Assembly (NCBI GenBank): GCA_023131975.1
Contig: JAGLYV010000029.1
Location: 1 to 64,000 of the forward strand
Source of the DNA: Candidatus Krumholzibacteriia bacterium
GTDB taxonomy: Bacteria; Krumholzibacteriota; Krumholzibacteriia; Krumholzibacteriales; Krumholzibacteriaceae
Length of the DNA stretch: 64,000 bases
Reading direction: 5' to 3'
Both the position numbers and the translations under genes were made by a program. The notes under the pieces are model-generated. The model worked only from the letters and a program-made list of their open reading frames with translations. It was not told the DNA's origin and ran no database searches. Every line of letters starts with the position of its first letter. Positions within the stretch are counted from its first letter, which is position 1. This document shows, piece after piece, positions 7,269 to 47,489 of this stretch.

Positions 7269-7311
7269 AGGTAAAAGGCCTCCATTTCCCTTGATACAGG
7301 GGGAGTAGAGA

Positions 7312-8343
7312 TTATTTGGTCTCGATCTTCCAGCCGGAGCTTCCCATAAATTCAAAAGAGTCGTCGATCAACGCGAACGCGGCCCTGACACCGGGAAAGG
7401 TCTCCGAGAGCTCACGGCTCGCTTCGGGGCCGAGAACGAAGAGTCCGGTCGAAAGAGCGTCTGACTCGATCGCCGAACGAGCGACGACCGTGACACTGAG
7501 TAGATGGTCTACGGTCATCCCTGTCCTCGGATCGATTATGTGGCCGTACTTCCTGCCGCCCAGAATAACAAAATTCTCGTAATTACCAGACGTTGCTATC
7601 GCCTCATCGGCTATTGTTACTTTTCCGACTATACCGTTTTCGCCGTGAGGTTCCCGTATGCCGATCGACCAGCCCTCGCGTCCGGGAGGAGTGCCGATCG
7701 CGTACATATTACCGCTGAGGTTGACAAGAGCGCTCTTCACGCCGCCGCCGCGGAGGATATCGACGCATCTGTCCACGCCATATCCTTTGCCGATACCGGC
7801 CAGATCTATCTGCATCCCTGCCGGGAGAGTAATGGCCAGTGAGGCGCGGTTCAGGATGACCTTATCCGATCCTGTATGAAGGAGTGTCCGGGATATCGCT
7901 TCGGCAGAGGGGATCTTTTCGAGAAGGAGTTCGCCGTCTTTCCGCTGGAATCCCCAGAGCCTGACCAGCGGGCGCGCCGTCACATCGAAGGCGCCTCCGG
8001 TCAGCCCTGAATAGTGAATAGATCTCTCAATGATTTCGAACAGTTCTTTTGAGACTTCTACAGGAGTGTCTTTCGGCCCATCGTTCAGAAGAGACAATTC
8101 GCTGTCGCCCCGCCAGTTGCTCATCAATCCATCTATCCTGGCCAGTTCGTGAAAGGCCTCGCCGGCGATTGCCGCGGCAGCATCCTCTTCCATCCCGTAG
8201 ATCGAGATGATACATTTCGAGCCCATGACAAAGGTCTCCCGCGTGACCGGCATCTCTTTTCTCGAGCATGATATTGTCAGTGCCGCGATGAAGGCCACCA
8301 TGACCAGAAAGGACAGAACAGCTTTTCGCAGGAAACGTTTCAT
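7312..8343 (-). CDS. apbE: FAD:protein FMN transferase, ApbE family lipoprotein
   Basis: ISCSRKEM lipobox, IDLAGIGKGYGVDRCVDILR, YGHIIDPRTG. Confidence 0.92.
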   Translation of the reverse strand: MKRFLRKAVLSFLVMVAFIAALTISCSRKEMPVTRETFVMGSKCIISIYGMEEDAAAAIAGEAFHELARIDGLMSNWRGDSELSLLNDGPKDTPVEVSKELFEIIERSIHYSGLTGGAFDVTARPLVRLWGFQRKDGELLLEKIPSAEAISRTLLHTGSDKVILNRASLAITLPAGMQIDLAGIGKGYGVDRCVDILRGGGVKSALVNLSGNMYAIGTPPGREGWSIGIREPHGENGIVGKVTIADEAIATSGNYENFVILGGRKYGHIIDPRTGMTVDHLLSVTVVARSAIESDALSTGLFVLGPEASRELSETFPGVRAAFALIDDSFEFMGSSGWKIETK

Positions 8344-8444
8344 GATGGTTTACTCCTGACTCTAACGTTTGAACAGTTCAGATCCACGGGACTTGCCCGG
8401 GTTGCCTGACTTTGAATTCACCTGAAAAGATCGACGCGGACAGA

Positions 8445-9737
8445 TCACGCGCCCGGCTTGCCGAGCAGCTTGAACATCCTGGTCTTATATTCTTCGACAC
8501 CGGGCTGGTCGAAGGGGTTGATACCGAGAAGCCGGCCGGTGACAGATACGACGATCTCGAAAAAGACGAAAAGCGCGCCGACGGTATCGGGTGTGATCGA
8601 CGGCACTTCGATCGTTATCACGGGAAGGCCTCCAGCTTCGTGCGCCGATCTTGTACCCTCGAAAGCTTTCGCGTTCACTTCGCTGACCGATCTTCCTGCC
8701 AGGTAGTTCAGGTTGTCAAGATCCTGCTGGTCGGATGGGATCGTCAGGTCCCGGAGAGGATGTTTTGCCACGAGGAATGTCTCCAGGATATCGCGGGCGC
8801 CCTCCTGGAGGAATTGTCCGAGTGAATGCAGGTCGGTCGTCATGATAGTCGATGCGGGGAAAAGGCCCTTGCCATCTTTTCCCTCCGATTCGCCGGCCAG
8901 CTGTTTCCACCATTCGCAGATCATGGCCAGTTCGGGATGGAATGTGGACAACACCTCTATCTTTGTTCCCCGGTCATGAAGCAGACTCCGCACTACCGCA
9001 TATCTTAACGCGTCATTTGTTCCCGAGGACCTGATGAATGTCTCAAGCGCTCCGAGAGCTCCTGCAAGCATTCCCTTGACCGGGATGCCCGCGGCTGCGC
9101 AGGGGAGGAGTCCCACGGGAGAGAGGATGCTGAATCTGCCGCCGACATCGGGGGGGATCGAAAATGTCTTCCATCCTTCTTTGGTAGCCATTTCCCTCAA
9201 CGCGCCCTTTGCCGGGTCGGTTATAGCTATGATCCTGTTTTTTATCGCGTCGGGGCCGAAAGTCTCGATCAGTTTGCGTTTGAGAAGCCGGAAGGCGATA
9301 GCCGGTTCGGTCGTAGTGCCCGATTTCGAGATTACGCAGATGGTGAATTTTTTCCCATCGAGACGGGACAGGAGAGCATCGAGGTAGACTGGCGAGAGGT
9401 TGTTGCCCGCGAAGTAGACGGGAAAACCGGCTTCGAAAGGCAGAGCCTCGATGGCGGCCCTCGCTCCGATATACGATCCGCCTATTCCCACCACGACCAG
9501 ACAGTCGTTTTCTTCCCGGATAGCCTTTCCAGTATCGGCCAGCTCGTCGATCTCTCTTTCAGACATATGTGGGAGATCGAGCCAGCCCAGCATCCCGGCG
9601 CCCGGCCCTCTTTTTTCAAGCAGGGAATCGAGGGCCTCGATAGCCGCGGGCATCCTGCCCGCGATGTCCTTTTCCTGGAGATGGGGGGACACTTTTTCGG
9701 TATCGATCGTTATCACATCTGCCCTCCTTGGCGGCAT
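8445..9737 (-). CDS. pgi: Glucose-6-phosphate isomerase
   Basis: VVVGIGGSYIGARAAIEALPF, VISKSGTTTEPAIAFR, GGRFSILSPVGLLPCAAAGI. Confidence 0.92.
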   Translation of the reverse strand: MPPRRADVITIDTEKVSPHLQEKDIAGRMPAAIEALDSLLEKRGPGAGMLGWLDLPHMSEREIDELADTGKAIREENDCLVVVGIGGSYIGARAAIEALPFEAGFPVYFAGNNLSPVYLDALLSRLDGKKFTICVISKSGTTTEPAIAFRLLKRKLIETFGPDAIKNRIIAITDPAKGALREMATKEGWKTFSIPPDVGGRFSILSPVGLLPCAAAGIPVKGMLAGALGALETFIRSSGTNDALRYAVVRSLLHDRGTKIEVLSTFHPELAMICEWWKQLAGESEGKDGKGLFPASTIMTTDLHSLGQFLQEGARDILETFLVAKHPLRDLTIPSDQQDLDNLNYLAGRSVSEVNAKAFEGTRSAHEAGGLPVITIEVPSITPDTVGALFVFFEIVVSVTGRLLGINPFDQPGVEEYKTRMFKLLGKPGA

Positions 9738-9759
9738 ACAACATTTCCCGTGCTGAAGG

Positions 9760-11442
9760 CTATTGTTCCAGTATCTTCTCCGTCAGGGCTACAGTCTCTT
9801 CTGTATGAGCGACGACCTCGGACCTGATCCTGTCTGCCTCGGTCTTTGTGACGGTCCTGAATTCTTCGTCCTCTATGCCGGGAAGGTTGATGACGACGTT
9901 GAGCCAGGCCCCTTCGGCGGCTGTCCGCGCTGTCAGGGCGGCTACGGCTGAGTCGCTGGCCGAGTTTTTGTTACCCTTTTCTGCAACGACTCTGGCCAGT
10001 TTTGCCGCGTCCAGTGAACGTTTCAGAACTCCCAGCGGGACGAGGGTGGCTTCTTTCGTACATTCCTCTATGGCGGCGGCTCTGGCAGCCTTTTCCTCGT
10101 CGGTCTTTTTCTTCATCCTCATGGCATCCATCACGCGGTTGAACGTGTCGGTATCCCTGTCGACATCGGTCAGAAATTCTTCCTTGAGACGCTGGGCTTC
10201 GATGCTGAGCTCCTCCATGGCATCGAAGGCGTCTTCGTATCCCTTCTTGCCGTGAGTGAGAGCGGCGACCATCGCCGAGAGAGCTCCGCTCAGCGCGCCG
10301 CAGAGGGCGGCCACACTGCCGCCACCGGGGGCTGGCGAATCGGTCGAGAGGACATCGGCGAACTCGGAAGTCTTCATCGCGACGAGGCTGTCAGCCCTGT
10401 GGAACTGATATTCAATGATCTTCTTGTCCGCCTCGAAAGGATAGAGGTCGCTGAGTCCCATGGAGAGGTCGGCGATATGGACCAGTTCCGATTCGGGTAC
10501 ACCGGTGAGCTTGCCCATTTTTGCCAGATAGTGTTTTCCTGCCTGGACGAGAGCTTCCAGGGGGATAAGGCCGACAAGCTCGCTTCCCGTGACACGGGCT
10601 CCAAGCTCCTGCGCGATCCGGGAACATTCGTCGAAGACGAGATGGGGAGGCGTGATACTGTAGTTTGTGAGATTGATAGAGACCTGGGCCCTTCCAAAAT
10701 CGTCCATGTACCAGCCGACCGCCTTGCATTCCTTGAAGATGCCGGGAGCTCTTACCGATTTATCATTCTCATCTTTTACGATTTTGCCCGCCTTGTCGCG
10801 TGCCAGACGGCCCTTTTCCCGGATAGTGAAGGCGATATCCCTCGCTACCTTCGTGTCGCGGGTATTGAGATTGACATTATAGGCGATGAGGAATTCCCTG
10901 GCGCTGATCGCTGTCGCGCCGGCGCCGGCGTTGAACTCTGCAGGGCCGCAGTCCGGTTTCCACTCTGGGTCTTTCAGTTTTTCGGGGAGGGCCTCGTATT
11001 CACCGGAGCGGACCGTGGCGAGGTTTTTCCATTCGGGTTTCGAGGCGGCGTATTCGTAGAAGTAAACGGGTATTCCCAGCTCGTTCCCTACCCTCTCACC
11101 AAGCCTGTGAGCCAGTTCGACACATTCGTCCATCGTGATCCCGCTTACCGGGACGAAGGGGCATACATCGGTCGCCCCCATACGCGCGTGCGTTCCGGTA
11201 TGGGTCCGCATATCGATGACCTCAGCGGCCTTTCTGATAGCCCTGAAAGCTGCTTCGACCACTTCGTCGGGTGGACCGATCATAGTGACGACTGTCCTGT
11301 TTGTGTCTTTTCCGGGGTCGACGTCGAGAAGTTTCACTCCTTCGACTCCGCTTATCTCATTTGTGATTGCATCGATCTTGGCCATATCAAGGCCTTCACT
11401 GAAATTGGGTACGCATTCGACCAGTTTCATATTCTCGATCAC
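9760..11442 (-). CDS. ftcD: Bifunctional glutamate formiminotransferase / formiminotetrahydrofolate cyclodeaminase
   Basis: N-terminal VECVPNFSEGLD..THTGTHARMGATDVCPFVPV; C-terminal cyclodeaminase DSPAPGGGSVAALCGALSGAL. Confidence 0.93.
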   Translation of the reverse strand: MIENMKLVECVPNFSEGLDMAKIDAITNEISGVEGVKLLDVDPGKDTNRTVVTMIGPPDEVVEAAFRAIRKAAEVIDMRTHTGTHARMGATDVCPFVPVSGITMDECVELAHRLGERVGNELGIPVYFYEYAASKPEWKNLATVRSGEYEALPEKLKDPEWKPDCGPAEFNAGAGATAISAREFLIAYNVNLNTRDTKVARDIAFTIREKGRLARDKAGKIVKDENDKSVRAPGIFKECKAVGWYMDDFGRAQVSINLTNYSITPPHLVFDECSRIAQELGARVTGSELVGLIPLEALVQAGKHYLAKMGKLTGVPESELVHIADLSMGLSDLYPFEADKKIIEYQFHRADSLVAMKTSEFADVLSTDSPAPGGGSVAALCGALSGALSAMVAALTHGKKGYEDAFDAMEELSIEAQRLKEEFLTDVDRDTDTFNRVMDAMRMKKKTDEEKAARAAAIEECTKEATLVPLGVLKRSLDAAKLARVVAEKGNKNSASDSAVAALTARTAAEGAWLNVVINLPGIEDEEFRTVTKTEADRIRSEVVAHTEETVALTEKILEQ

Positions 11443-34626: not shown

Positions 34627-34830
34627 TTATCCTCCGTGCGCAAGATGGAAGACTACCACATTCGAACCACTTTCCAGTTCGTATGAATCATAATCTTCTT
34701 CCGGTATGAGGATCTCGTTTACCGTCACGGTGATCAGTACGTAGTCATAGCCCATCTCGTCGAGCAGGTCCTGGACCGTCATCCCTTCGCGCCATTCAAG
34801 TCTGTCCCTGTTATTGACGGTTATCATCAC
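34627..34830 (-). CDS. thiS: ThiS/MoaD-like sulfur carrier protein
   Basis: Beta-grasp-size protein with C-terminal GG (..VVFHLAHGG). Confidence 0.8.
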   Translation of the reverse strand: MMITVNNRDRLEWREGMTVQDLLDEMGYDYVLITVTVNEILIPEEDYDSYELESGSNVVVFHLAHGG

Positions 34831-35445
34831 TTATACCTCCCCGCCCGTTATCAGCGCGATCGCCGTATTGGCCTGGATCGCGGCCGCGATGGCGACTCGT
34901 GCGCCGCAGAGGCCGATCTGTGGGTCGGATCGTTCGTCACCGACGATATGGATATTACCCGAAGTCCTGAGCTCGATCGACGCGTTGTTTCCGATACCCG
35001 CGATGCCGCTGACTCCGATCACCGGCCTGTCAGGGCGCGCGGAACACCATTTTTCCAGGAGCCAGTGTTTGTCTTCGGCCCTGTCAAATGCTTCGATCAG
35101 TATCTGGGCATCTCCATATATCTCAATAAGATTATCGGCTGTGAGCCTTGTGTCGTGCAGCTTTAGACGGATAGACGGATTGATAGCGCGTAGATGGTCG
35201 GCGAGAGCTTCTACCTTGACTCTGCCGATATCGTTCTGGAAAAAATGTTGTCTGTTGAGATTCGACTCCTCGATGGAGTCGTGATCGACGAGGATGAGAT
35301 TTCCCACTCCCGCTCTCGTCAGGTACACGGCAGTGTTCGACCCTATACCTCCGCATCCGGCTATACCGACAGTCGCGGCAGCGAGTCTTTTCGTAGAGCC
35401 GGAGACGTTTCTTTTGAAAATGCCGCTTTCCATATCCATGATCAT
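34831..35445 (-). CDS. thiF: ThiF/MoeB-like sulfur-carrier adenylyltransferase
   Basis: VGIAGCGGIGSNTAVYLTRAGVGNLILVDHDSIEESNLNRQHFF. Confidence 0.88.
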   Translation of the reverse strand: MIMDMESGIFKRNVSGSTKRLAAATVGIAGCGGIGSNTAVYLTRAGVGNLILVDHDSIEESNLNRQHFFQNDIGRVKVEALADHLRAINPSIRLKLHDTRLTADNLIEIYGDAQILIEAFDRAEDKHWLLEKWCSARPDRPVIGVSGIAGIGNNASIELRTSGNIHIVGDERSDPQIGLCGARVAIAAAIQANTAIALITGGEV

Positions 35446-35531: not shown

Positions 35532-37532
35532 TTATTCCTGATCGTCTTTTATGATCTCGACAAGCTCCGGCAGGTCGATGCCGAGTTCTTTCAGGCGTTC
35601 GATCTTCGGAACGCCGTTTCTTGTCCAGCCGCGACGGTCGTACGCCGCGTCGACTACTTTGTTGTACTGCTCTACCCTGTGTTTTCTGGTAATCTCCATC
35701 TTTTCTTCGGTGCTTTTGCCTGTCGGGTCGATGCCGATGATCTCTTTCATCTGTTTGTCGTAGAGCTTTTCGGCGCGTGACTCATACTCTTCCCCGGTCA
35801 CAGGGCCGACAGCTCTGTATGGGGGCATATCGTCTTTGCGCGTGCCGTATCCGAGCATACGGGACATCACCCGCTGAAGGTTGTGTACACGCGCGGACTG
35901 ATCCAGCATCTTTTCCTCGTCGAGTGGCTCTCCGGTCATTCCCTCGAAGAACTTGAAGAAATCCTCTACATGCTCGGGCACCTTTGCCGCCTGCTGCGGA
36001 GGGAAATTCTTGTTGGTCGCCGGGACCACATCGTTCCAGATCAGCTTGCAGAGGCCATTGAGGCCGAACCATGTACGCCAGAGCGGGTAGTAGTAGAGAG
36101 CTTCGGCCTTGTCATCGAAAGATGGTATCTGATTGTTCACCATATCCATGAAGATCAACCAGGCTTCGTCATGCTGCGGCCCCTTGACTGCCATCGTGTA
36201 ACCGGCCTGCTGGGCGAGTGATTCCTTGCACACATATTCGGAATACTCGAGCCCCTTGACTTCCATGCCGATATCCTGCATGAAATCGGCATCGGCGCCC
36301 AGTTCCCTGGCCCATTTTCCCTTGAGGTAGCGGATGCCCATTCCGACATCTACTCCGAATCCTTCACCGAGCGCCATCTCGTGCAGGCACTGAAGGACCT
36401 CGGCGGTAGCGCCGAATTTGAGTTCCTTGCCACCGGTAACTTCCTTGTCTATCAGCCCGTTTTCGAAACACTCCATGACGAATGCCATACATGTACCGAC
36501 CGATATAGTATCGACTCCGTAGGTATCGCAGTAGAAGTTGTATTCCATAAGGAAATCGCCGTCGAAGCATCCCATGTTCGCCGCCGCTGCGGCAGTCTCG
36601 TATTCCGGTCCATCGACAGTGACCTTCGAGCCTTTGTAGGGGCCGGTCTTCAGTTCGAAGCCGTCGACCGTCTTGGCGCAGGCCATCGAACATCCCTTCC
36701 AGCAACCGTCCGGCAGTCCCTGTGTCACGTACTTTGCCTTGAGCATCTTCGAGTCGATGTTGGGCGTGTCCACATGCTGGCCGAATTTGTAGTTGTGTAC
36801 GGGCAACAGGTCGTACGCGTCCATCACATCGACGATGTTGGCTGTCCCGACTTCGCGCATCCTGCACTGTGATTTGTCGAGGGTGGCCATCTCGGCGTTG
36901 ATCTTCATCCCGTAGTCGCGGATGAGCTTTGCGTCATGGGGCCCGTTCATATCGTCCACTATCTCAATGGCCCCGGTGGGGCAGACGTAGGCGCAGGACG
37001 TACAGCCAATACAATGCGGATCGACCTCGCCGAAGGGCATCGTCATGTGTCTCTTGATGCCGCGTCCCGCGAAATCAAGGATCTTTTCCATAACGAATTC
37101 CTCGCAGGCGTGGACACAATGTCCACAGAGTATGCAGGCCTTCTCATTCTCGTCGGTCAACTCTGATTTGTATTTGTCCTTGTCGGTGGCGCCGCAGATG
37201 GCCGCGATCTCCTGGATGATGGGAACCTTGGGCCAGCGGCCCAGGTACATCTCGGCAAGGGTCTTTCGGTGTTTTTTCACCCTTTCAGATGTAGTGTCGA
37301 CACTGATCTCACCGCGGATCGGGAAGTTACAGGAGGTGACCAGTTTTTTCTTTCCGTTCTGTTCGATCTCCACGACACAAAGGCGGCATGTGCCCTGAGG
37401 TGTGAGATCCTTGTGATGACAGAGGGTAGGGACCGCTACCCCGTTATCCCTGAGTACTCCAAGCAGGAAGCTGTCTTTTATTACCTCGGTCTCTCTACCA
37501 TCGATCTTTATCGTGATTTTCTTTGTAGCCAT
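35532..37532 (-). CDS. HydA/NuoG-type [2Fe-2S]/[4Fe-4S] ferredoxin module fused to the C-terminal (domain 2/3) half of an aldehyde:ferredoxin oxidoreductase
   Basis: CHHKDLTPQGTCRLCVVEI; CILCGHCVHACEEF; CIGCTSCAYVCPTGAI; then AOR-like CWKGCSMACAKTVDG, KGPQHDEAW, FGLNGLCKLIW. SD GGAGGTGAT directly before ATG 37532. Confidence 0.85.
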   Translation of the reverse strand: MATKKITIKIDGRETEVIKDSFLLGVLRDNGVAVPTLCHHKDLTPQGTCRLCVVEIEQNGKKKLVTSCNFPIRGEISVDTTSERVKKHRKTLAEMYLGRWPKVPIIQEIAAICGATDKDKYKSELTDENEKACILCGHCVHACEEFVMEKILDFAGRGIKRHMTMPFGEVDPHCIGCTSCAYVCPTGAIEIVDDMNGPHDAKLIRDYGMKINAEMATLDKSQCRMREVGTANIVDVMDAYDLLPVHNYKFGQHVDTPNIDSKMLKAKYVTQGLPDGCWKGCSMACAKTVDGFELKTGPYKGSKVTVDGPEYETAAAAANMGCFDGDFLMEYNFYCDTYGVDTISVGTCMAFVMECFENGLIDKEVTGGKELKFGATAEVLQCLHEMALGEGFGVDVGMGIRYLKGKWARELGADADFMQDIGMEVKGLEYSEYVCKESLAQQAGYTMAVKGPQHDEAWLIFMDMVNNQIPSFDDKAEALYYYPLWRTWFGLNGLCKLIWNDVVPATNKNFPPQQAAKVPEHVEDFFKFFEGMTGEPLDEEKMLDQSARVHNLQRVMSRMLGYGTRKDDMPPYRAVGPVTGEEYESRAEKLYDKQMKEIIGIDPTGKSTEEKMEITRKHRVEQYNKVVDAAYDRRGWTRNGVPKIERLKELGIDLPELVEIIKDDQE

Positions 37533-40500
37533 TTATATCACCTCCACAGCGTCGAAATTGCAGGTCTCGAAACAGATCCCGCACTTGATGCATTTATCTG
37601 CCTCGATCACATGGAGTCTTTTCGACTCTCCCGTGATAACCTGCACCGGGCAGGCTCTCGCGCAGAGGGTGCAGCCGGTACATTTGTCGTTTATCCTGTA
37701 TGTGATCAGCGCCTTGCAGACACCGGCGCCGCATTTCTTTTCCTTTATATGCTGTTCGTACTCTTCTCTGAAGTATTTCAGAGTGGAGAGTACCGGGTTC
37801 GGAGCCGAGCCGCCGAGCTGACAGAGGCTCGTGTCCCGAACGGTGTCACAGAGTTCCTCCAGCGTCTCGATATCACCTTCCTTCCCTTCACCAGCGCATA
37901 TTCGTGTCAGGATGTTGTTCATCAGGTGTAATCCCTCGCGGCAGGCCGTACATTTGCCGCACGATTCGTCCATCAGGAAATCGATGAAATATCTCGCTAC
38001 ATCGACCATGCAGGTATTCTCGTTCATCACGATCATACCGCCCGAACCCATCATCGATCCCGCTTCGGTCAATGAGTCGAAGTCGACCGGCATGTCGAGC
38101 ATCGACGCGGGGATGCATCCTCCTGAAGGTCCGCCGGTCTGTACCGCCTTGAACTTCTTTCCGCCGGGGATGCCTCCGCCGATCTCCTCGACGATCTCAC
38201 GGAGCGTGATGCCCATCGAGACCTCTACAAGTCCGGTGTTCGTTATGTCTCCAACGAGTGAGAATACCTTTGTGCCTGATGAGCCGCCCCACGGGTTTCC
38301 GGAAACGTCTCCCGAACCTATCGAGGCAAACCAGTGAGCGCCCTTCTCGATGATCACAGGGATATTGGCCCATGTCTCGACGTTGTTCAATACCGTCGGC
38401 TTGTCGCGAAATCCGTATTCGACGTTGTGAACATACTTGGCTCTCGGTTCTCCGGCCTTGCCGGCCATCGATGCCATCAGCGCGCTTGACTCACCGCATA
38501 CGAAAGCTCCCGCGCCCCGGTGAATGTGTATTTCGAAGGAGAATCCCTTGCCCATGACGTCGTTTCCGAGGATGCCGTATTCGTGGCACTGCTCGATCGC
38601 CTTCTGGAGTCTGTCAAGGGCGAGAGGGTATTCTTTCCTGATGTAGATGTATCCCTCTTTCGCGCCGGTCGCGTACGCGCCTATCAGCATACCCTCTATC
38701 ACCGAATGGGGGTCGGTCTCGATGATCGACCTGTCCATGAAGGCTCCCGGATCACCTTCGTCGGCGTTACAGACGACGAAGATCTCCTCACCGCGTTCCA
38801 GCGCTGCCTTGCGTCCCGATTCCCATTTGACGCCCGCGGGGAATCCGCCGCCGCCGCGGCCCCGGATACCGGAGACGATCACTTCCCTGATCACGCCCTC
38901 GGGATCTCCACTGCCGATCACGGTACGAAGCGAGGTGTACCCGCCGCGCGCGATGTAATGGTCTATATTCTCGGGGTCTATAAGGCCCTTGTTCCTCAGG
39001 GCGATAAGCTGCTGTTTGCTGAAGAAGGTGATGTCGTCCATCTTCTCGTTCACGGCGCCCGATACCGGGTCGGTATGCAGGAGTCTTTCGACCACCTTTC
39101 CAGTAGCGAGGCTGTCTACGAGTTCTTCTATGTCTTCTTTCTGGACCTTCTGGTAAAAGGTGCCCGAAGGCTGGATGACCACGATAGGCCCCATAGCGCA
39201 GAAACCGTTACAGCCGGTACCTACGACAAGAAAATCTTTCTCCAACCCTTTTTCCCTGATCACCGAAATCAGGCTGTCGCGGATATCGAAGCCTTTCGCC
39301 GACACGCAACCGGTCCCGGTGCATACCATCAGCATATTTTTATAACCGGCTGTTTTCTCTTTTTCCGCCGAGGCGATCTTTTCCAGATCGTCAGAAGATA
39401 TTCTGGCGGATTTTTTCGAAGCACTTTTTCCGGCGGTCTTTTTCTTCTTTTCGGCCTTGCCAGCTTTCTCGAGGAGTTTCTCGACGTCCATGGCCCTTAC
39501 ATTGCCGAATACCTCTTCTCCGATCTTGACGACCGGAGCGATAGAGCATGCTCCGAGGCATGCGACCGCCTCGAGAGAATACTTGCTGTCTTCCGTAGTC
39601 TGGCCAGTCTTCACGCCAAGGACCCTTTCGAACGAGTCGAGTATCTTCGCCGAGCCCTTTACGTGGCAGGCTGTGCCCATGCAGACCTGGACTATCGTCT
39701 CACCTTTTGGCTCCAGGCTGAAAGCCTTGTAGAATGTGGCGATGTGGTAGAGGTGTGATTTTGGCTTGCCGGTCTTTTTGCACAGTTCATCGATGGCTGT
39801 TTTGGATATATGACGGAACCGTTCCTGGATGTCCTGCATCATCTCGATGACGTATTCGGGGTCGTTGTCCCATTTGTCTATGATGGAGTGGATCTCTTTG
39901 ATCTCGCCCGCGCACTGCAGGGAGAGTATTTTCGGTTTGATCTGCTCGGCGACCTTATTTTCCTCTATGCGCCACGCGGGGTTTATCTGACGGTTTTTAA
40001 GTACGAGAGCCTTTAATTTTTTATCGCGGAAGACCGTTCCCGTACCGCCTCGGCCGGCCTGTTTGATCCGTGGGACGTTCCTGCGCCAGTCCCAGAAGGA
40101 GAAGTTGAGAACACCCATGTGAGTGTGCTCGGCTCCCCGGCCCGCGGAGACACAGGCGATGTTTCTGAGGTCGAGTTCGTCGGCCGCGTACATCACGGCG
40201 AGTTCCTCGGCGAGAAGATGGGAATCGACACTTTCCATGGGAGCAGTCTCGATGGTCACTTTTCCCGCGACCGCGTCTATAAGCACGATGACTTCTCTGT
40301 CGGCCTTTCCGGTGACCATCAGCGCGTCAAAACCGGCGAATTTCAGGTATGGTCCGAAATATCCACCGACATTACAGTCCATCATCGATTTTGTGAGAGG
40401 GGAGAGGGCCGTTACTATGGTCTTTCCCGATCCTGGAAATGAAGTCGCTCCGCCCAGGGGGCCCGAGGAAAAACAGAGCGGGTTTTCGGGGCTGTCCCAC

Positions 40501-40730
40501 TTCGTGTCTTTCGAGATCTCCTGGAAAGTGAGCCAGAGATCGAAACCCTTTCCTCCAGTCCACAGTTTTTTCATCTCGTCGCTGACCGGAAGGATGCTGA
40601 TCTTGTTCTCTCCGATATCCACTCTCAGGGTCCTGCCCGCGTAGCCTTTTTGGAGCGGGATGACATCGAACGGGAACTCGCAGAGGACCTCGTGTGCTTC
40701 TTTCATTTTCAGGATACGCTTGTCTACCAT
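37533..40730 (-). CDS. N-terminal domain of aldehyde:ferredoxin oxidoreductase fused to NuoE/HydC- and NuoF/HydB-type diaphorase modules with C-terminal 2x[4Fe-4S]
   Basis: GYAGRTLRVDIGENKISILP...FSSGPLGGATSFPGSGK...NVGGYFGPYLKFAGFDALMVTGKA...AGRGGTGTVFRDKKLKAL; NuoE TACHVKG..ACLGACSIAP; NuoF SGIRGRGGGGFPAGVKWE, CNADEGDPGAFMDR, ESCGKCTACREG; CTGCTLCARACP, CIKCGICFETCNF. ORF track start 40784; AAGGAGG favours ATG 40730. Confidence 0.88.
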   Translation of the reverse strand: MVDKRILKMKEAHEVLCEFPFDVIPLQKGYAGRTLRVDIGENKISILPVSDEMKKLWTGGKGFDLWLTFQEISKDTKWDSPENPLCFSSGPLGGATSFPGSGKTIVTALSPLTKSMMDCNVGGYFGPYLKFAGFDALMVTGKADREVIVLIDAVAGKVTIETAPMESVDSHLLAEELAVMYAADELDLRNIACVSAGRGAEHTHMGVLNFSFWDWRRNVPRIKQAGRGGTGTVFRDKKLKALVLKNRQINPAWRIEENKVAEQIKPKILSLQCAGEIKEIHSIIDKWDNDPEYVIEMMQDIQERFRHISKTAIDELCKKTGKPKSHLYHIATFYKAFSLEPKGETIVQVCMGTACHVKGSAKILDSFERVLGVKTGQTTEDSKYSLEAVACLGACSIAPVVKIGEEVFGNVRAMDVEKLLEKAGKAEKKKKTAGKSASKKSARISSDDLEKIASAEKEKTAGYKNMLMVCTGTGCVSAKGFDIRDSLISVIREKGLEKDFLVVGTGCNGFCAMGPIVVIQPSGTFYQKVQKEDIEELVDSLATGKVVERLLHTDPVSGAVNEKMDDITFFSKQQLIALRNKGLIDPENIDHYIARGGYTSLRTVIGSGDPEGVIREVIVSGIRGRGGGGFPAGVKWESGRKAALERGEEIFVVCNADEGDPGAFMDRSIIETDPHSVIEGMLIGAYATGAKEGYIYIRKEYPLALDRLQKAIEQCHEYGILGNDVMGKGFSFEIHIHRGAGAFVCGESSALMASMAGKAGEPRAKYVHNVEYGFRDKPTVLNNVETWANIPVIIEKGAHWFASIGSGDVSGNPWGGSSGTKVFSLVGDITNTGLVEVSMGITLREIVEEIGGGIPGGKKFKAVQTGGPSGGCIPASMLDMPVDFDSLTEAGSMMGSGGMIVMNENTCMVDVARYFIDFLMDESCGKCTACREGLHLMNNILTRICAGEGKEGDIETLEELCDTVRDTSLCQLGGSAPNPVLSTLKYFREEYEQHIKEKKCGAGVCKALITYRINDKCTGCTLCARACPVQVITGESKRLHVIEADKCIKCGICFETCNFDAVEVI

Positions 40731-40852: not shown

Positions 40853-40880
40853 ACCGTTATGTTCGAACAGACATAACGGT
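40853..40880. promoter_or_regulatory. Putative ModE-type operator ACCGTTATGT-N8-ACATAACGGT
   Basis: Perfect 10-bp inverted repeat, 8-nt spacer, between divergent AOR and wtp operons; resembles the recalled E. coli modA ModE site CGTTATAT-N8-ACATAACG. Confidence 0.75.
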
Positions 40881-40971: not shown

Positions 40972-42012
40972 ATGATGGTCGGGTTACGGGACATTCAGGG
41001 TGGTTTGAAAGCGGGTAGGCAGATGCGATCTATGACAGGGTCTTTATTGATTCTGATGGTGTTCTTTCTCGCGGTTATCTCGTCGTGCGGAGATGGTGGA
41101 GGGGATGGTGGAAAGACCGACCTGGTGATATTCCACGCGGGGTCGTTGTCGGTGCCGCTCAAACGGATGGCGGCTCTTTACATGGAGAAGAATCCAGAGG
41201 TGAACGTCCTTCTGGAAGCTGCCGGCAGTCGGGCGTGCGCGAGAAAGATATCAGAGCTTGGAAGAGAATGCGATGTCATGGCCTCCGCCGACTATACGGT
41301 GATCGATCAATTACTTATTCCTGACCATGCATCGTGGAACATAAAGTTTGCCGGCAACGAGATGACGATCGTCTACCATGAAGAGTCGATGAGGTCCGAC
41401 GAGATCGACGCGGATAACTGGTTCATGATACTGATGGAGGACAATGTCGCTTTCGGCAGATCCGATCCGAACTCGGACCCATGCGGGTACAGGGCCGTGT
41501 TTACGATGCGGCTGGCAGAGACGCATTACGGAATGGCCGGGCTGGCGGATGGATTTCTGGAAAAAGATAAACGCTACATAAGGCCGAAGGAGACAGACCT
41601 GATCGCCCTGCTCGAATCGGGCGTGATCGACTATATCTTTCTGTACAGGTCGGTTGCTCAGCAGCATGGCCTGGATTATCTGATCCTTCCCAGTGAGATC
41701 AACCTGGGGGATCTGGAAATGGCCGGGACCTATGGAAAAGTCTCGGTGGAGATATCGGGGAAAAAGCCGGGGCACTGGATAGTCAAAAAGGGCGCGCCGA
41801 TGGTATATGGTGTGACCATACCTTCGAACGCTCCGCATCCGGAGATCGCCCGTTCGTTTATCGAGTACCTGCTGACCGAAGATATGGGTATGGCCGTGAT
41901 GACAGAATGCGGCCAGCCATCTGTACTTCCCTCGTATACGGATACCTACGATGCCCTGCCGGAGAGACTGAGACGATTTGCCCTGCCGGAGAAGCCGGGG
42001 AATCAATTATGA
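40972..42012 (+). CDS. wtpA: Tungstate/molybdate ABC transporter substrate-binding lipoprotein (WtpA-like)
   Basis: VISSCGDGG lipobox; LVIFHAGSLSVPLKRMAALYMEKNPEV; GRSDPNSDPCGYRAVFTMRLAE. Confidence 0.9.
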   Translation: MMVGLRDIQGGLKAGRQMRSMTGSLLILMVFFLAVISSCGDGGGDGGKTDLVIFHAGSLSVPLKRMAALYMEKNPEVNVLLEAAGSRACARKISELGRECDVMASADYTVIDQLLIPDHASWNIKFAGNEMTIVYHEESMRSDEIDADNWFMILMEDNVAFGRSDPNSDPCGYRAVFTMRLAETHYGMAGLADGFLEKDKRYIRPKETDLIALLESGVIDYIFLYRSVAQQHGLDYLILPSEINLGDLEMAGTYGKVSVEISGKKPGHWIVKKGAPMVYGVTIPSNAPHPEIARSFIEYLLTEDMGMAVMTECGQPSVLPSYTDTYDALPERLRRFALPEKPGNQL

Positions 42013-42803
42013 GAATATTCCGCGGGGAGATGACGCATCTTGTGTTTGCGGCGCTGGGCGGGCTCGTGCTGCTCTTTATCATAGCGCCTCTCGCGGGGAT
42101 GTTTCTGAGCGTCACCCCTGGAGATCTCTCGGAATCAGCCAGCGATCCAGAGGTGTCGAGAAGTGTCAGGGTCACTCTGTTCACTTCGATGGGAGCCACC
42201 CTTATCATGGCTCTTGGTTCCGTGCCGCTCGCCTGGCTGCTGGCCAGGAAAGATTTTCCACTGAAGCAATTGATAAACGGGATAATCGATCTTCCCATAG
42301 TGATACCGCATTCCGCGGCCGGGATAGCTCTGCTCGGGGTGATAGCGAGAGGGACTCCCATGGGACGTCTCGCCGAAAAAGCGGGGTTCGAGTTTGTCGG
42401 TGGTTACGCGGGGATCATGGCGGCGATGGCGTTTGTCAGCGTTCCTTTTCTTGTAAACTCCGCGAGAGACGGGTTTGCCGCGGTGCCCAGGCAGCTGGAA
42501 AAGGCAGCTCTCAATCTCGGCGCTTCTCCCGTGAGAGTCTTTTTTACCATATCGGTACCGCTTGCCTGGCGGTCGATCCTGTCCGGACTGATCCTGATGT
42601 GGGCCCGCGGGATGAGCGAGTTCGGTGCGGTCCTTGTCGTCGCGTATCATCCTATGATCACGCCGGTCCTGATCTATGAAAGGTTCGGAGCCTTCGGCCT
42701 GAAATACGCGCGGCCTGTCTCGGTCCTGTTCGTCACGATATGCCTTCTCTTTTTCATCACGCTCAGGGTGATAGCGGGAAGGAGAAGAGATGCTCAGAGT
42801 TGA
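42009..42803 (+). CDS. wtpB: Tungstate/molybdate ABC transporter permease
   Basis: LPIVIPHSAAGIALLG..., ARGMSEFGAVLVVAYHP (EAA-like loop); ATGA overlap with wtpA. Confidence 0.88.
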   Translation: MRIFRGEMTHLVFAALGGLVLLFIIAPLAGMFLSVTPGDLSESASDPEVSRSVRVTLFTSMGATLIMALGSVPLAWLLARKDFPLKQLINGIIDLPIVIPHSAAGIALLGVIARGTPMGRLAEKAGFEFVGGYAGIMAAMAFVSVPFLVNSARDGFAAVPRQLEKAALNLGASPVRVFFTISVPLAWRSILSGLILMWARGMSEFGAVLVVAYHPMITPVLIYERFGAFGLKYARPVSVLFVTICLLFFITLRVIAGRRRDAQS

Positions 42804-43905
42804 GGGATTGTCGAAAAGTTTCGGAGCATTTTCGATGAGCGATGTTTCATTCGAAGTCTCCGAAGGAGAATATTTTGTCCTCCTCGGTCCTTCAGGTACG
42901 GGCAAGACTGTCCTTCTGGAGACACTGGCCGGTATGATGGAGGCTGACGATGGCAGGATCATCCTCCGCGGGAGGGATATCACAAGAGAACGGGTACAGA
43001 AGCGGGGAATAGGCCTGGTCTTTCAGGATCAGGCTCTTTTTCCGCATATGACGGCGCGGGCGAATATAGCGTATGGACTACACGGAAGGGTCGCCGGAAA
43101 AGCTGCTATTCAGGCGAGAGTGGAGCAGCTGGCTGAAGAGATGGAAATATCTCATCTCCTCGAAAGGATGCCGGGTACCCTGTCCGGCGGTGAAGCCCAG
43201 AGGGTGGCACTGGCCAGGGCCCTCGGGGCCGAACCGGACTGCCTTCTGCTCGACGAGCCGCTCTCTTCCCTTGACACGGGCGGCCGTTCGAGGATGAGAG
43301 GGTTGCTCCGAAGACTGAACCGGAAGAAGATGACGATAATACATGTGACTCATGACTATGAGGAGGCCCTTTCGCTCGCGTCGAGAGTCGGGATAATGGA
43401 GGACGGCCGTATCGTTCAGGTCGATTCTCCCGAGAGGATATTTCGCGATCCCGGTTCCGAATTCGTGGCAAGGTTCATAGGGATAAAGAATTTTTTCAGG
43501 GGACGGATAGAGAGGCGGGCAGTCGCGGGTGGAGGAGATCCTGCCGCAGGAGGAGACATCGTGGCTGGACGGGTTACTACCGCAGGAGCCGAACCGGTCT
43601 TCATATCGGAGGGAATAAAGCTTGATGTCCTGACATCACTGGACGCGGGAGACGCAGTCGCGGTGATAAGATCCGAGGACATAGTCGTCTCTATCGAACC
43701 GGTATCCTCAAGCGCGCGAAATGTGATCGCCGGTGTCATTATAGATATCGTGCCTGTCCGTGGCGGGGTCGAGATATTGATCGACGCCGGGGTGGAACTG
43801 GCCGCCATGGTCACTCCCCGTTCTGTGGAGAGACTCGGGCTTGAGATAGGTACAAAGATATATTCTTCGATAAAGGCCAGCGCCATAAGGGTGCTCGACG
43901 GCTGA
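42790..43905 (+). CDS. wtpC: Tungstate/molybdate ABC transporter ATP-binding protein
   Basis: LGPSGTGKTVLLETLAG, LSGGEAQRVALARALGAEPDCLLLDEPLSSLD; C-terminal TOBE-like region. Confidence 0.9.
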   Translation: MLRVEGLSKSFGAFSMSDVSFEVSEGEYFVLLGPSGTGKTVLLETLAGMMEADDGRIILRGRDITRERVQKRGIGLVFQDQALFPHMTARANIAYGLHGRVAGKAAIQARVEQLAEEMEISHLLERMPGTLSGGEAQRVALARALGAEPDCLLLDEPLSSLDTGGRSRMRGLLRRLNRKKMTIIHVTHDYEEALSLASRVGIMEDGRIVQVDSPERIFRDPGSEFVARFIGIKNFFRGRIERRAVAGGGDPAAGGDIVAGRVTTAGAEPVFISEGIKLDVLTSLDAGDAVAVIRSEDIVVSIEPVSSSARNVIAGVIIDIVPVRGGVEILIDAGVELAAMVTPRSVERLGLEIGTKIYSSIKASAIRVLDG

Positions 43906-43980: not shown

Positions 43981-44352
43981 ATGGAACCTGGAGTAAAACT
44001 ATATATCAATACAGACGAGAGGGAAGGCCTTTTCGGCGACGGGAAGTATCTTCTACTCAAAGCGGTAAGCGAACTTGGTTCACTGAGAAAAGCTTCGATC
44101 AAACTGGGCAGGGGATACAGGAAAGCCTGGGACGATATTCGGAGAACGGAAGAAGGCCTCGGCAGAAAGATCGTCCTGAGGTCGAGAGGGGGATCCGATG
44201 GCGGATCGACGAGGCTGACCACTTTTGGGTCCGAACTGCTTGAAGCCTGGGAAAGATACAGGAACGAAGTCTCGGCATGTCTTGAAAAAGCCTGGGACGA
44301 ACAACTGCGCGGCCTGCTGGAAAAAGCGGACGAAAACGGACGGGATGCGTAG
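43981..44352 (+). CDS. ModE N-terminal-like winged-helix regulator
   Basis: YLLLKAVSELGSLRKASIKLGRGYRKAWDDIRRTEEGLGRKIVLRSRGGSDGGSTRLTTFGSELLEAW; no Mop domain. Confidence 0.85.
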   Translation: MEPGVKLYINTDEREGLFGDGKYLLLKAVSELGSLRKASIKLGRGYRKAWDDIRRTEEGLGRKIVLRSRGGSDGGSTRLTTFGSELLEAWERYRNEVSACLEKAWDEQLRGLLEKADENGRDA

Positions 44353-44380: not shown

Positions 44381-44569
44381 ATGGACAGGGAAAAACTGAC
44401 AGAATTGATTCGGGAAAATGCTCTGGAGAGAGACGGAAAAAAAGTGATGCCGTGCCCGAAGGCGTTTATGTTGTCCAGAGAATACGGGGTGTCTCTGAAA
44501 CAGATCGGTGAATGCTGCAATGAGGCCGATATAAGGATATCGAACTGCCAGCTTGGGTGTTTTAAGTAA
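44381..44569 (+). CDS. Conserved-looking 62-aa Cys-containing protein
   Basis: MDREKLTELIRENALERDGKKVMPCPKAFMLSREYGVSLKQIGECCNEADIRISNCQLGCFK; ends flush with moeA start. Confidence 0.65.
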   Translation: MDREKLTELIRENALERDGKKVMPCPKAFMLSREYGVSLKQIGECCNEADIRISNCQLGCFK

Positions 44570-46185
44570 TGAAGACGATTGTGATCGCCGGCGCGCATTC
44601 GAACGTAGGCAAGACGGGGCTGGCCGGTCGGATATGTTCGATCGTGAAGGGCGCCGTTCATATAAAGATCGGACATGGCCCTGTAAAGAAGGATATGGAC
44701 AATATCTTTTTTCCCCAGGGTACGCCATTTCGAGAGATACTGGAGAGATACGATGACGCGCCGTTTCTTGTGATAGAAAGTGGAGCGATCACCGCGGAGT
44801 TCGAACCGGACTGCCTTATCTATCTTCCCGGTGGTGAACCGAAGCCGGGCGCGGATGAGATCAGAAAGGTCGCTGATCTTGTCCGGGGCGAGTCGGCCGG
44901 ATCGGGCAGGTTCGCTGTCCTGGCTGGAAGGCTGGGCCTGTCGCTGGATACTATCGGCCGGATCGCGGATGCCGCGGAAGTTCAGACAGAGGTGGATAAA
45001 ACTGTGAAAGAGATGATTACGTTCGATGAAGCGTTTGCGGCAGTCATGACTTCGGCATCACCGCTCGGAAGCGAGGAGGTATCCCTCGATGATGCTGCCG
45101 GCAGGGTTCTTTTTGAAGATATTCTCTCCGATATGGATATGCCGCCCTTCGACAAGTCGGCGATGGACGGGTACGCCTGCAGGAAGATCGATCTTGCTGC
45201 CCCGATGAAGATCGTCGCCACGCTTCCCGCAGGAGAACTCCCAACGGTTGAGATCGATTCTGGCGAATGTGTGAAAATAATGACAGGGGCCGCCGTTCCG
45301 GCAGGAGCGGATGTGGTAGTGAAGGTGGAGGACACGGAAGAGTCCGGCGGGATGATGACGGTCACAGGAAAAAGCAACGCGATAAACATATGTTACAGGG
45401 CAGAAGATGTCTCGGCCGGGGATACGGTCCTTCGCTCCGGCAGCTTGATCGGGCCGGTGGAGATAGCGGTGCTGGCCGCCGTCGGCCGAACGACCATAAA
45501 GGTCTTCAGAAAACCAAGGATCGGGATCATCGCTACCGGCAGCGAGCTGGTGGAGCCCGGAGAAAAGCCGTCGGGAGCACAGATCAGAAACAGCAACAGC
45601 TATCAGCTTGTTGCGCAGGCAACCCTCGCCGGGTTTGATGCCGCATATATGGGAATCGCGGGAGATTCTCCGGAAGAGATTGCCACAGCTCTTGATGGAG
45701 CCGCGGCTTCATCTGACATCGTGATCCTGTCTGGAGGCGTCTCCATGGGAGACTATGATTACGTTCCCGGAGTGATAGAGAAGAACGGTTTCGATATCCT
45801 TTTTCGCAAGGTCGCCATAAAGCCCGGCAAGCCCACTGTCTTTGCCAGGGGAAAGGATAAGTTTATTTTCGGCCTGCCCGGCAACCCCGTGTCGACCTTC
45901 GTACTCTTCGAGATACTTGTGAGACCGTTCGCGTCGCTGTTGATGGGGATGGATTATGATCCCGTAAAGGCGATGGTCAGGCTGTCTGTTCCGGTCACAA
46001 GGAAAAAGGCCGTGAGGAAATCTTATATCCCAGTTGTTCTGGATGGCACCGGGACTGCCGGTCCGGTCGAGTATCATGGTTCCGCGCATATCCACGCCTA
46101 CGCGGGCGCCGACGGTATCATCTCGATGGAGCCGGGAGTGAGCCGTCTGGAAAAGGGCGAAGAAGTGGATGTGATCCTGCTATGA
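44569..46185 (+). CDS. moeA: MobB-like P-loop domain fused to MoeA (molybdopterin molybdenumtransferase)
   Basis: N-terminal GAHSNVGKTGLAGRI; MoeA motifs PPFDKSAMDGYA, IMTGAAVPAGADVVVKVE, GVSMGDYDYV, FGLPGNPVSTFVLFE. Confidence 0.9.
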   Translation: MKTIVIAGAHSNVGKTGLAGRICSIVKGAVHIKIGHGPVKKDMDNIFFPQGTPFREILERYDDAPFLVIESGAITAEFEPDCLIYLPGGEPKPGADEIRKVADLVRGESAGSGRFAVLAGRLGLSLDTIGRIADAAEVQTEVDKTVKEMITFDEAFAAVMTSASPLGSEEVSLDDAAGRVLFEDILSDMDMPPFDKSAMDGYACRKIDLAAPMKIVATLPAGELPTVEIDSGECVKIMTGAAVPAGADVVVKVEDTEESGGMMTVTGKSNAINICYRAEDVSAGDTVLRSGSLIGPVEIAVLAAVGRTTIKVFRKPRIGIIATGSELVEPGEKPSGAQIRNSNSYQLVAQATLAGFDAAYMGIAGDSPEEIATALDGAAASSDIVILSGGVSMGDYDYVPGVIEKNGFDILFRKVAIKPGKPTVFARGKDKFIFGLPGNPVSTFVLFEILVRPFASLLMGMDYDPVKAMVRLSVPVTRKKAVRKSYIPVVLDGTGTAGPVEYHGSAHIHAYAGADGIISMEPGVSRLEKGEEVDVILL

Positions 46186-46994
46186 CGATCGATGGACATG
46201 GAAGAAATATCGATTACCTGAGGATATCGGTGACGGACAGGTGCAACTACCGTTGTGTCTACTGCATGCCCGAAGAGGGGGTAAGGTTGAAGGGACACGA
46301 TGAGATCCTCACTTTCGAGGAGATCGTCAGGATAGCGGGTGCTGCCGGAGAACTCGGTTTCAGAAAGCTCAGGCTCACCGGTGGCGAACCGCTTGTAAGA
46401 AAAAATATAGAACGGCTCGTGGGGATGATCAGCAACACCGGGTACTATGACGATATTTCGATGACGACCAACGGCACGATGCTCAGCCCTGTCCTCGCCC
46501 TGACTCTCAGAGACGTGGGACTCAGCAGGGTCAATATTTCTCTCGATACCCTCGATTCCGGGCGGTTTGCGGAGATTACGAGGGGCGGCGACATCGATGA
46601 TGTATTTGCCGGAATCGAAGCGGCGAAGAGGGCCAGGTTCGATCCCGTGAAGATAAATATGATCATATTCGATACGACTACGATGGAGGAAGTCGAATCG
46701 ATGAGGGCCTTCTGCGGGGAGCACGATCTCCTGCTTCAGACGATAAAGCATTTTTCCCTGTACAGGATGGTCGACAGCGGGCAGGTCCATTCGTTCGACA
46801 GGCCGATGCCCTGCAGCAGGTGCGACAGGCTCAGGTTGACGGCCGATGGTTATTTCAAGCCCTGTCTGTTTTCGGATCACGAGATCAAGGTAGACATGGA
46901 CGATATAAAGGGATCGATACTGAAGTCCGTCAGGGAGAAACCTCTTGAGGGGAGCTCCTGCTGCAACAGGTCGATGTATCAGATCGGAGGGTGA
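46182..46994 (+). CDS. moaA: Short GTP 3',8-cyclase MoaA
   Basis: ISVTDRCNYRCVYCMPEEG; C-terminal CSRCDRLRLTADGYFKPCLF; C-terminal GG. Confidence 0.88.
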   Translation: MTIDGHGRNIDYLRISVTDRCNYRCVYCMPEEGVRLKGHDEILTFEEIVRIAGAAGELGFRKLRLTGGEPLVRKNIERLVGMISNTGYYDDISMTTNGTMLSPVLALTLRDVGLSRVNISLDTLDSGRFAEITRGGDIDDVFAGIEAAKRARFDPVKINMIIFDTTTMEEVESMRAFCGEHDLLLQTIKHFSLYRMVDSGQVHSFDRPMPCSRCDRLRLTADGYFKPCLFSDHEIKVDMDDIKGSILKSVREKPLEGSSCCNRSMYQIGG

Positions 46995-47036
46995 TCCACG
47001 CGGGGGACCCTGGTAAAACGTTGACTGGAGGACAGC

Positions 47037-47489
47037 ATGAAGAAATTTTCGCATATTGGTCAGACCGGAGAAGTGAAGATGGTAGATATCTCCGGCAAGG
47101 AGATCGAGAAACGTACGGCGGTCGCCGCCGGAGCCATCCTGATGTCGAAAGAGACTGTCGCCATGATAGGTGAGGGCCTGCTGAAGAAGGGCGACCCGCT
47201 GGCGACCGCGAGGATAGCGGGGATAATGGCTGCGAAGAAGACATCCGACCTGATCCCTCTCTGTCATCCGCTTCCGATAGCAAAAGTCGGAATCGATTTC
47301 AATGTGGGTGTGGACAGGATCGATATCGAGGCGACGGTAGTGACGACGGCGAGGACAGGTATCGAGATGGAAGCGCTTACAGCGGTCGCGGTCGCGGGAC
47401 TTGCCATATATGATATGTGCAAGGCTGTGGACAAGTCCATGACGGTCTGCGAGATCAGGCTTGTAAGCAAAAAGAAGGAAAAGAAGTGA
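47037..47489 (+). CDS. moaC: Cyclic pyranopterin monophosphate synthase MoaC
   Basis: IPLCHPLPIAKVGIDF, GIEMEALTAVAVAGLAIYDMCKAVDKSM. Confidence 0.95.
   Translation: MKKFSHIGQTGEVKMVDISGKEIEKRTAVAAGAILMSKETVAMIGEGLLKKGDPLATARIAGIMAAKKTSDLIPLCHPLPIAKVGIDFNVGVDRIDIEATVVTTARTGIEMEALTAVAVAGLAIYDMCKAVDKSMTVCEIRLVSKKKEKK

Follow-up and report, generated by a model that had tools for sequence, protein, structure and literature searches.

A candidate tungstopterin oxidoreductase of the AOR family split over two polypeptides that are cross-fused to BfuABC-type electron-transfer modules

Results and discussion

Two abutting genes encode the halves of an AOR chain fused to Bfu modules

The DNA analysed here, referred to as the window, is a stretch of 64,000 nucleotides (positions 1 to 64,000 of contig JAGLYV010000029.1, assembly GCA_023131975.1) from Candidatus Krumholzibacteriia bacterium. 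On its minus strand two abutting genes encode P0001 (1065 amino acids, 37533..40730), composed of AFOR domain 1, BfuC (NuoE) and BfuB (HydB/NuoF), and P0002 (666 amino acids, 35532..37532), composed of BfuA (NuoG/HydA N-terminal part) and AFOR domains 2/3. Thus, what is a single catalytic chain in other AORs is here distributed over two proteins. A previous sequence-only reading had proposed an AOR made of two cross-fused polypeptides, linked to NAD(H) and perhaps electron-bifurcating, and domain content, cluster ligands and recurrence in other genomes support this description. Both genes were found as open reading frames with the coordinates and domains given in that reading. In P0001 Pfam detects AFOR_N (residues 32-245, E 4e-45), 2Fe-2S_thioredx (281-422, 8e-51), Complex1_51K (620-791, 1e-43), NADH_4Fe-4S (910-994, 2e-33) and a Fer4 pair from about residue 1012, and in P0002 Fer2_4 (4-82, 3e-14), a Fer4 dicluster (133-188) and AFOR_C (209-652, 1e-83). 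No whole-protein NCBIfam model scored above its cut-off for P0001 or P0002; one NuoE-domain model passed narrowly. The features of the two genes, with Pyrococcus furiosus AOR (1AOR) as reference, are the following.

39996..40637, minus strand: AFOR_N (AOR domain 1), aligning to 1AOR residues 3-210; K103, N120 and R227 conserved
39465..39890, minus strand: BfuC/NuoE thioredoxin-like [2Fe-2S] domain, cluster C1 (C350, C355, C391, C395)
39051..39344, minus strand: BfuB N-terminal thioredoxin-like [2Fe-2S] domain, cluster B5 (C470, C475, C507, C511)
37731..38978, minus strand: BfuB/NuoF FMN-NADH domain with B1 [4Fe-4S] and the B2 ligands C907, C945, H994 and C1000; C1005 lies just outside
37545..37697, minus strand: BfuB C-terminal 2x[4Fe-4S] ferredoxin domain (B3, B4)
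37530..37545, minus strand: putative translational coupling of P0001 and P0002, with GGAGGTGAT within the last P0001 codons and TAA followed by ATG
36951..37523, minus strand: BfuA module with [2Fe-2S] A1 (C38, C49, C52, C68) and two [4Fe-4S] clusters
35577..36908, minus strand: AFOR_C (AOR domains 2/3), cluster C277, C281, C285 and C495; E312, E330, D336, D341 and H454

The stop codon of P0001 is followed without a gap by the start codon of P0002 (GTGGAGGTGATATAAATGGCT); the abutting genes and the Shine-Dalgarno sequence in the last P0001 codons, both noted before, are directly visible in the sequence. A separate AAGGAGG precedes the P0001 start codon at 40730. In 29 of 44 homologous loci the corresponding genes are separated by -1 to 2 nucleotides (a start/stop overlap or at most 2 nucleotides), usually with the same Shine-Dalgarno sequence inside the upstream reading frame. 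Judged from this spacing, P0001 and P0002 look translationally coupled. When P0002 was compared with its counterpart from a genome of the same genus, 155 codons differed synonymously and 28 non-synonymously, and 167 of the 199 base differences fell on third positions. Thus, the coding sequence is under strongly purifying selection.

The split arrangement recurs in many phyla

A search of public genomes for the same architecture, with one genome per species, detected the BfuA-AFOR_C fusion in at least 46 loci (L023-L068) and in many relatives of the window genome. The hosts belong to more than 15 phyla and include Krumholzibacteriota, Acidobacteriota, Aminicenantes, KSB1, Cloacimonadota, Myxococcota/Deltaproteobacteria, Sumerlaeota, Eisenbacteria, Bdellovibrionota, Muiribacteriota, Elusimicrobia, Planctomycetota, Armatimonadota, Coatesbacteria, Fermentibacteria, Bacillota and one Thermoplasmatota archaeon. 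Within the order of the window, 14 of the 25 genomes searched (that of the window included) contain P0002 in full or for the most part, with an identity of at least 74%; some of these copies lie in pieces at contig ends. Mis-assembly, a frameshift or chance as the origin of the arrangement is ruled out by this recurrence, which extends to relatives with genomes of two and four contigs.

By their record titles nearly all of the split-enzyme loci come from metagenome-assembled genomes (MAGs), and such bins may be mislabelled. L042 and L044 are apparently identical, yet their bins are labelled Clostridia and Dojkabacteria, which points to mis-binning in at least one of them. In one Krumholzibacteriia genome (L012 and L027) the BfuA-AFOR_C gene has an in-frame TAA in its NuoG part.

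Residues of the AOR active site are conserved across both polypeptides

Most catalytic and cofactor residues of P. furiosus AOR map one to one onto the split enzyme. N93, R186 and R76 correspond to N120, R227 and K103 of P0001, and C288/291/295, E313, E332, D338, D343 and H448 to C277/281/285, E312, E330, D336, D341 and H454 of P0002, where C495 lies in the GLCK motif. All of these positions are invariant in alignments of 32 and 16 rows. Unsplit AORs of about 720 amino acids (L069-L102; from Clostridia, Bacteroidales, Lokiarchaeota and others), the next 34 best among the matches listed, share about 60% identity with the C half and 48-57% with the N half and carry the same pterin, cluster and active-site residues. 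The exceptions relative to 1AOR (R76 to K103, R182 to K223, K450 to E456 and the Asp of DxxGLC) are all present in these unsplit sisters as well. The cluster motif CWKGCSMAC of P0002 had been recognized correctly in the sequence-only reading; its spacing, as in the unsplit sisters, is CX3CX3C and differs from the CX2CX3C of the Pyrococcus enzyme. Pterin and cluster ligands are lost in neither half, so that the pterin-binding and [4Fe-4S] ligands which characterize the AOR/WOR superfamily are present across P0001 and P0002 together, whereas AFOR_N and AFOR_C, placed by the superfamily definition in one WorL protein, lie on different proteins.

The distances of the N and C halves correlate with r = 0.84 (Mantel p 0.001), a figure that includes shared ancestry. 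In AlphaFold2 monomer models (pLDDT 78, shallow alignments) the fold of P0002 matches AORs and 9mqx_A, and that of P0001 matches HydB/WorB chains with 9mqx_B on top.

The two genes could alternatively be the relic of a disrupted AOR, whose halves do not assemble and which is rescued by a complete AOR encoded elsewhere. The window genome indeed contains a second, complete AOR of 600 amino acids (G000:C102:18605-19720, L001), but this is a paralogue distant from the split enzyme. Furthermore, four near-complete relatives (G002, G010, G023 and G042, 93-97% complete) encode no AFOR_C protein other than the split enzyme, which therefore cannot depend on another AOR there; supply of the catalytic chain in trans by a complete AOR was rejected for these genomes. 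Together with purifying selection, invariant ligands and wide recurrence this makes a non-functional relic highly improbable.

P0001 and P0002 contain a complete set of Bfu modules

The core of Bfu enzymes has been described as an invariant BfuBC unit in which BfuB contributes five of the six Fe-S clusters and BfuC one, and the B2 [2Fe-2S] cluster with its His ligand is absent from non-bifurcating homologues (PMC9304861). In P0001 all ligands of C1 and B1-B5, i.e. of all six clusters, are present. At the B2 site C907, C945, H994, C1000 and C1005 align to C438, C476, H525, C531 and C536 of 7t2r_B, and the FMN/NADH motifs GRGGGGFP..K, CNADEGDPG and GAGAFVCGES are intact. The BfuA part of P0002 contains A1 and two [4Fe-4S] clusters and lacks A3/A5, which is the Type 2 set (A1, A2, A4) found in WorA; the closest solved chain is 9mqx_A (WorA). 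Thus, the ferredoxin part assigned before as HydA/NuoG-type was confirmed as a module, but its cluster set is that of a Type 2 (Wor-Bfu) BfuA and not that of HydA. Type 2 BfuA proteins work with separate catalytic subunits; P0002 combines the Type 2 cluster set with fusion of half of the catalytic chain to BfuA, which is a Type 1 trait.

An AOR gene probably interrupted by a bfuCBA operon

All loci of sufficient length show the domain order AFOR_N, NuoE, NuoF, NuoG, AFOR_C from 5' to 3'. A four-gene version exists in L060, L063 and L065, in a three-gene version AFOR_N and NuoE are fused, and in the two-gene version of the window AFOR_N, NuoE and NuoF are fused. A fusion of the whole set into one chain, considered for a 1785-amino-acid open frame in G005, was rejected: NuoF lies in another frame, and this is an open frame only. 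At the junctions the homology of the N half to the unsplit sisters stops at ..KALVVK and that of the C half restarts at DLNHPAD; hence, no AOR segment was lost. By alignment the N half corresponds to residues 3-210 of 1AOR, a region that Chan et al. are said to have described in 1995 as domain 1 of the Pyrococcus enzyme. The arrangement suggests that an AOR gene was interrupted at the linker between domains 1 and 2 by a complete bfuCBA operon, insertion being the simplest history. This would describe the origin better than the earlier proposal, in which an AOR had replaced the H-cluster part of a HydABC enzyme.

When the split enzymes were constrained as one clade, the resulting tree was 26.7 log units better than that of the free search (p-AU 0.80). 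The BfuB parts of the split enzymes form one clade with SH-aLRT values of 96-97 in comparison with BfuB from the same phyla and four BfuB chains from the PDB. A single origin of the split arrangement is favoured, though not proven, by these trees. BfuB distances do not follow AOR distances when degenerate NuoF domains are included (r of about 0.1 to 0.2); without them r is about 0.64.

Proposed reaction

We estimate with a probability of roughly 0.7 that P0001 and P0002 are the two subunits of a tungstopterin oxidoreductase of the AOR/WOR type, whose AOR chain was cut by the inserted operon, with fusions taking place later, and which couples the oxidation of an aldehyde, or the reduction of an acid, to both NAD(H) and ferredoxin. 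Tungsten is the presumed metal and an aldehyde the probable substrate. AFOR domain 1 from P0001 and domains 2/3 from P0002 would build one ordinary bis-pterin tungsten site with its [4Fe-4S] cluster. Aldehyde and water would be converted to the acid there, and the electrons would pass from the AOR [4Fe-4S] cluster directly to the covalently attached BfuA clusters, without a WorS subunit in between. From BfuA they would reach the BfuBC core, where the FMN together with B2 and C1 may divide them between NAD+ and ferredoxin, possibly by bifurcation. In the reverse direction NADH and reduced ferredoxin could drive acid reduction.

If so, the catalytic chain of a metal-cofactor enzyme has been cut by a functioning operon, and the separate subunits of Wor-Bfu have become one interlocked pair. 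Such an event points to a way in which a simple ferredoxin enzyme could turn directly into an energy-coupled complex.

The NADH/FMN loop has been changed repeatedly

Of 36 lineages that could be scored, 22 have an intact NADH/FMN loop (NADEGDPG), as does the window; in the other 14 it is altered, deleted or gone with the whole domain. The loop states require at least ten changes on the AOR tree, while the AOR residues stay conserved. In some lineages the BfuC [2Fe-2S] cluster or the ferredoxin domain at the C-terminus is gone as well, and all that is left of NuoF in L057 is an N3-cluster-like remnant. In L064 (Coatesbacteria, 7192-9974) AFOR_N is directly followed by BfuA-AFOR_C, and there is no NuoE or NuoF in the locus. 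The deletions were read from MAGs, but they are in frame and several are common to related genomes. Lineages with an intact and with a changed loop can readily be compared to learn which elements of the Bfu core electron coupling requires.

Two other explanations have to be weighed here. The enzyme might be an AOR linked to NAD(H) and ferredoxin that does no more than share out electrons between them, or it might use NAD alone; in neither case would it truly bifurcate. The repeated decay of the loop and the lineages that also lack B3-B5 yet keep their AOR residues would agree with this, as would the published caution on the relative Wor1 cited below. Since no BfuBC ligand is missing from the window protein, not even the B2 His that non-bifurcating homologues lack (PMC9304861), we consider this explanation rather unlikely, although it is the strongest of the competing ones. 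Alternatively, the NAD/FMN part might in the split family chiefly serve as a scaffold or wire, with ferredoxin (via B3/B4) or another partner as acceptor and a flavin site that in the window has simply not yet been lost. The many loop changes around an intact AOR core and the reduced loci L064 and L057 fit such a role. However, the window and most scored lineages have an intact flavin loop, which is thus apparently under selection there, and we regard a chiefly structural role as distinctly unlikely.

Several observations weigh against the coupled two-subunit enzyme proposed above. Because loop changes occur in 14 of 36 lineages that keep their AOR residues, NAD coupling appears dispensable in places and not essential for the split family, even if it looks intact in the window. 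For Wor1, a 2025 review speaks of a distribution of electrons in which no endergonic step is proven (PMC12096430). The second pterin-binding Asp motif, DxxGLC in 1AOR, is GxxGLC here, a change common to the unsplit sisters. No cultured member was found among the split-enzyme loci, and the trees were made by quick methods with limited comparison sets, the base of the AOR tree being poorly resolved.

Tentatively, and at slightly less than even odds, a wider picture may be drawn: one intragenic insertion of a bifurcation operon would have created a class of tungstoenzymes with a split active site that spread across many phyla of uncultured bacteria, the pterin site being assembled from two polypeptides covalently wired to the bifurcation core. 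The NAD site would then have been disabled repeatedly, switching between NAD/ferredoxin-coupled and NAD-independent modes.

Genes for tungstate uptake and cofactor synthesis surround the split enzyme

The following features flank P0001 and P0002.

34627..34830, minus strand: ThiS/MoaD-family sulfur carrier, 67 amino acids, with GG end
34831..35445, minus strand: ThiF/MoeB-like adenylyltransferase, the next gene in the cluster and the most frequent neighbour of the split family
40854..40879, no strand assigned: ModE-like palindrome CCGTTATGTTCGAACAGACATAACGG in the divergent intergenic region
40972..43905, plus strand: wtpABC-type tungstate/molybdate ABC transporter, divergent from the split enzyme
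43981..44352, plus strand: protein with ModE-type DNA-binding domain
44569..47489, plus strand: moeA, moaA and moaC (pterin cofactor synthesis)

The WtpA protein encoded beside the split enzyme scores 310 bits against a cut-off of 243 for TIGR03730, which points indirectly to tungsten as the bound metal. Between wtpA and the split enzyme, positions 40854-40879 form a perfect palindrome, CCGTTATGT-N8-ACATAACGG, that resembles a ModE site; it occurs once in the window, with none expected in shuffled sequences, and similar palindromes lie upstream of L023, L024, L025, L027 and L055. No Rfam elements were found. MoeA (44569-46185) carries an N-terminal extension of about 140 amino acids with a P-loop (GAHSNVGKTGL) outside the MoeA domains, possibly MobB-like. 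MoaA (46182-46994) is short (270 amino acids), scores below the MoaA equivalog cut-off and apparently misses part of its C-terminal half.

Among 107 neighbouring open reading frames from about 20 loci, searched with Pfam and NCBIfam, no recurrent metabolic partner was found, the only recurrent meaningful neighbours being ThiF and tungstate/molybdate transport. Therefore, the gene neighbourhood does not assign a substrate. In the flanks of the unsplit sisters (L069-L102), which are single-chain proteins, there were no NuoE/F/G matches. These genes often lie beside those for a ferredoxin, a DAO-type FAD oxidoreductase, Pyr_redox_2 and a Fer2_4 protein, an HcnABC-like set that may be a lead to a substrate.

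A reaction of the BamB type, in which the tungsten site reduces an activated ring or an acid with NADH and ferredoxin, was considered as well. The class II benzoyl-CoA reductase BamBCDEFGHI also joins an AFOR protein to NuoEFG-like subunits, and BamB is among the fold matches. However, BamB is a weaker match than the AORs in both sequence and fold, and no genes for BamC or for the Hdr-type BamD/BamE were found around the window cluster or recurrently among the sampled neighbours of its relatives. We thus regard such a reaction as improbable.

Comparison with known systems

With the electron-bifurcating HydABC/BfuABC [FeFe]-hydrogenases the split enzyme shares the BfuB and BfuC modules, in which no cluster ligand and neither the FMN nor the NADH motifs are missing. 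It lacks the H-cluster and A3/A5 in BfuA, and the site for the third substrate is an AOR of the tungstopterin type. P. furiosus AOR shares the residues described above, but it is a single-chain ferredoxin enzyme and distant in sequence. The class II benzoyl-CoA reductase likewise combines an AFOR-family catalytic chain with BfuABC-like BamGHI; its BamB is intact, and it contains the polyferredoxin BamC and the Hdr-like BamD/E, none of which was found here.

The most similar known system is the Class IV WOR or Wor-Bfu, represented by AmWOR1 of Acetomicrobium mobile (PDB 9mqx), which likewise joins an AOR catalytic chain to BfuABC with a BfuA lacking A3/A5. AmWOR1 has five subunits with an intact WorL and a four-cluster WorS nanowire, whereas in the window WorL is cut, its halves are fused to BfuC-BfuB and BfuA, and no WorS was found in the cluster. 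The AOR part of the split enzyme is not specially close to 9mqx_D. In a survey of Bfu enzymes Wor-Bfu was described with intact SL subunits (PMC9304861), and a 2026 classification of tungsten oxidoreductases recognizes Class IV only as WorLSABC, i.e. five subunits including a WorS with four [4Fe-4S] clusters in the operon order SLCBA or CBASL (PMC13328260). We file the split enzyme as one that probably works like Wor-Bfu; with no WorS and a divided WorL it is, by its predicted composition, not a Class IV WOR as defined.

A term search of the 2025 review (PMC12096430) found no split form. Searches of the open-access literature turned up no described family divided in this manner, in line with the earlier reading, to which no AOR split and cross-fused in this way was known. 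Thus, the split arrangement appears to be undescribed. In the 2026 classification WorL was taken only as proteins containing both IPR013983 and IPR001203 (PMC13328260), and for this reason the split clade, although widespread in uncultured lineages, would escape it.

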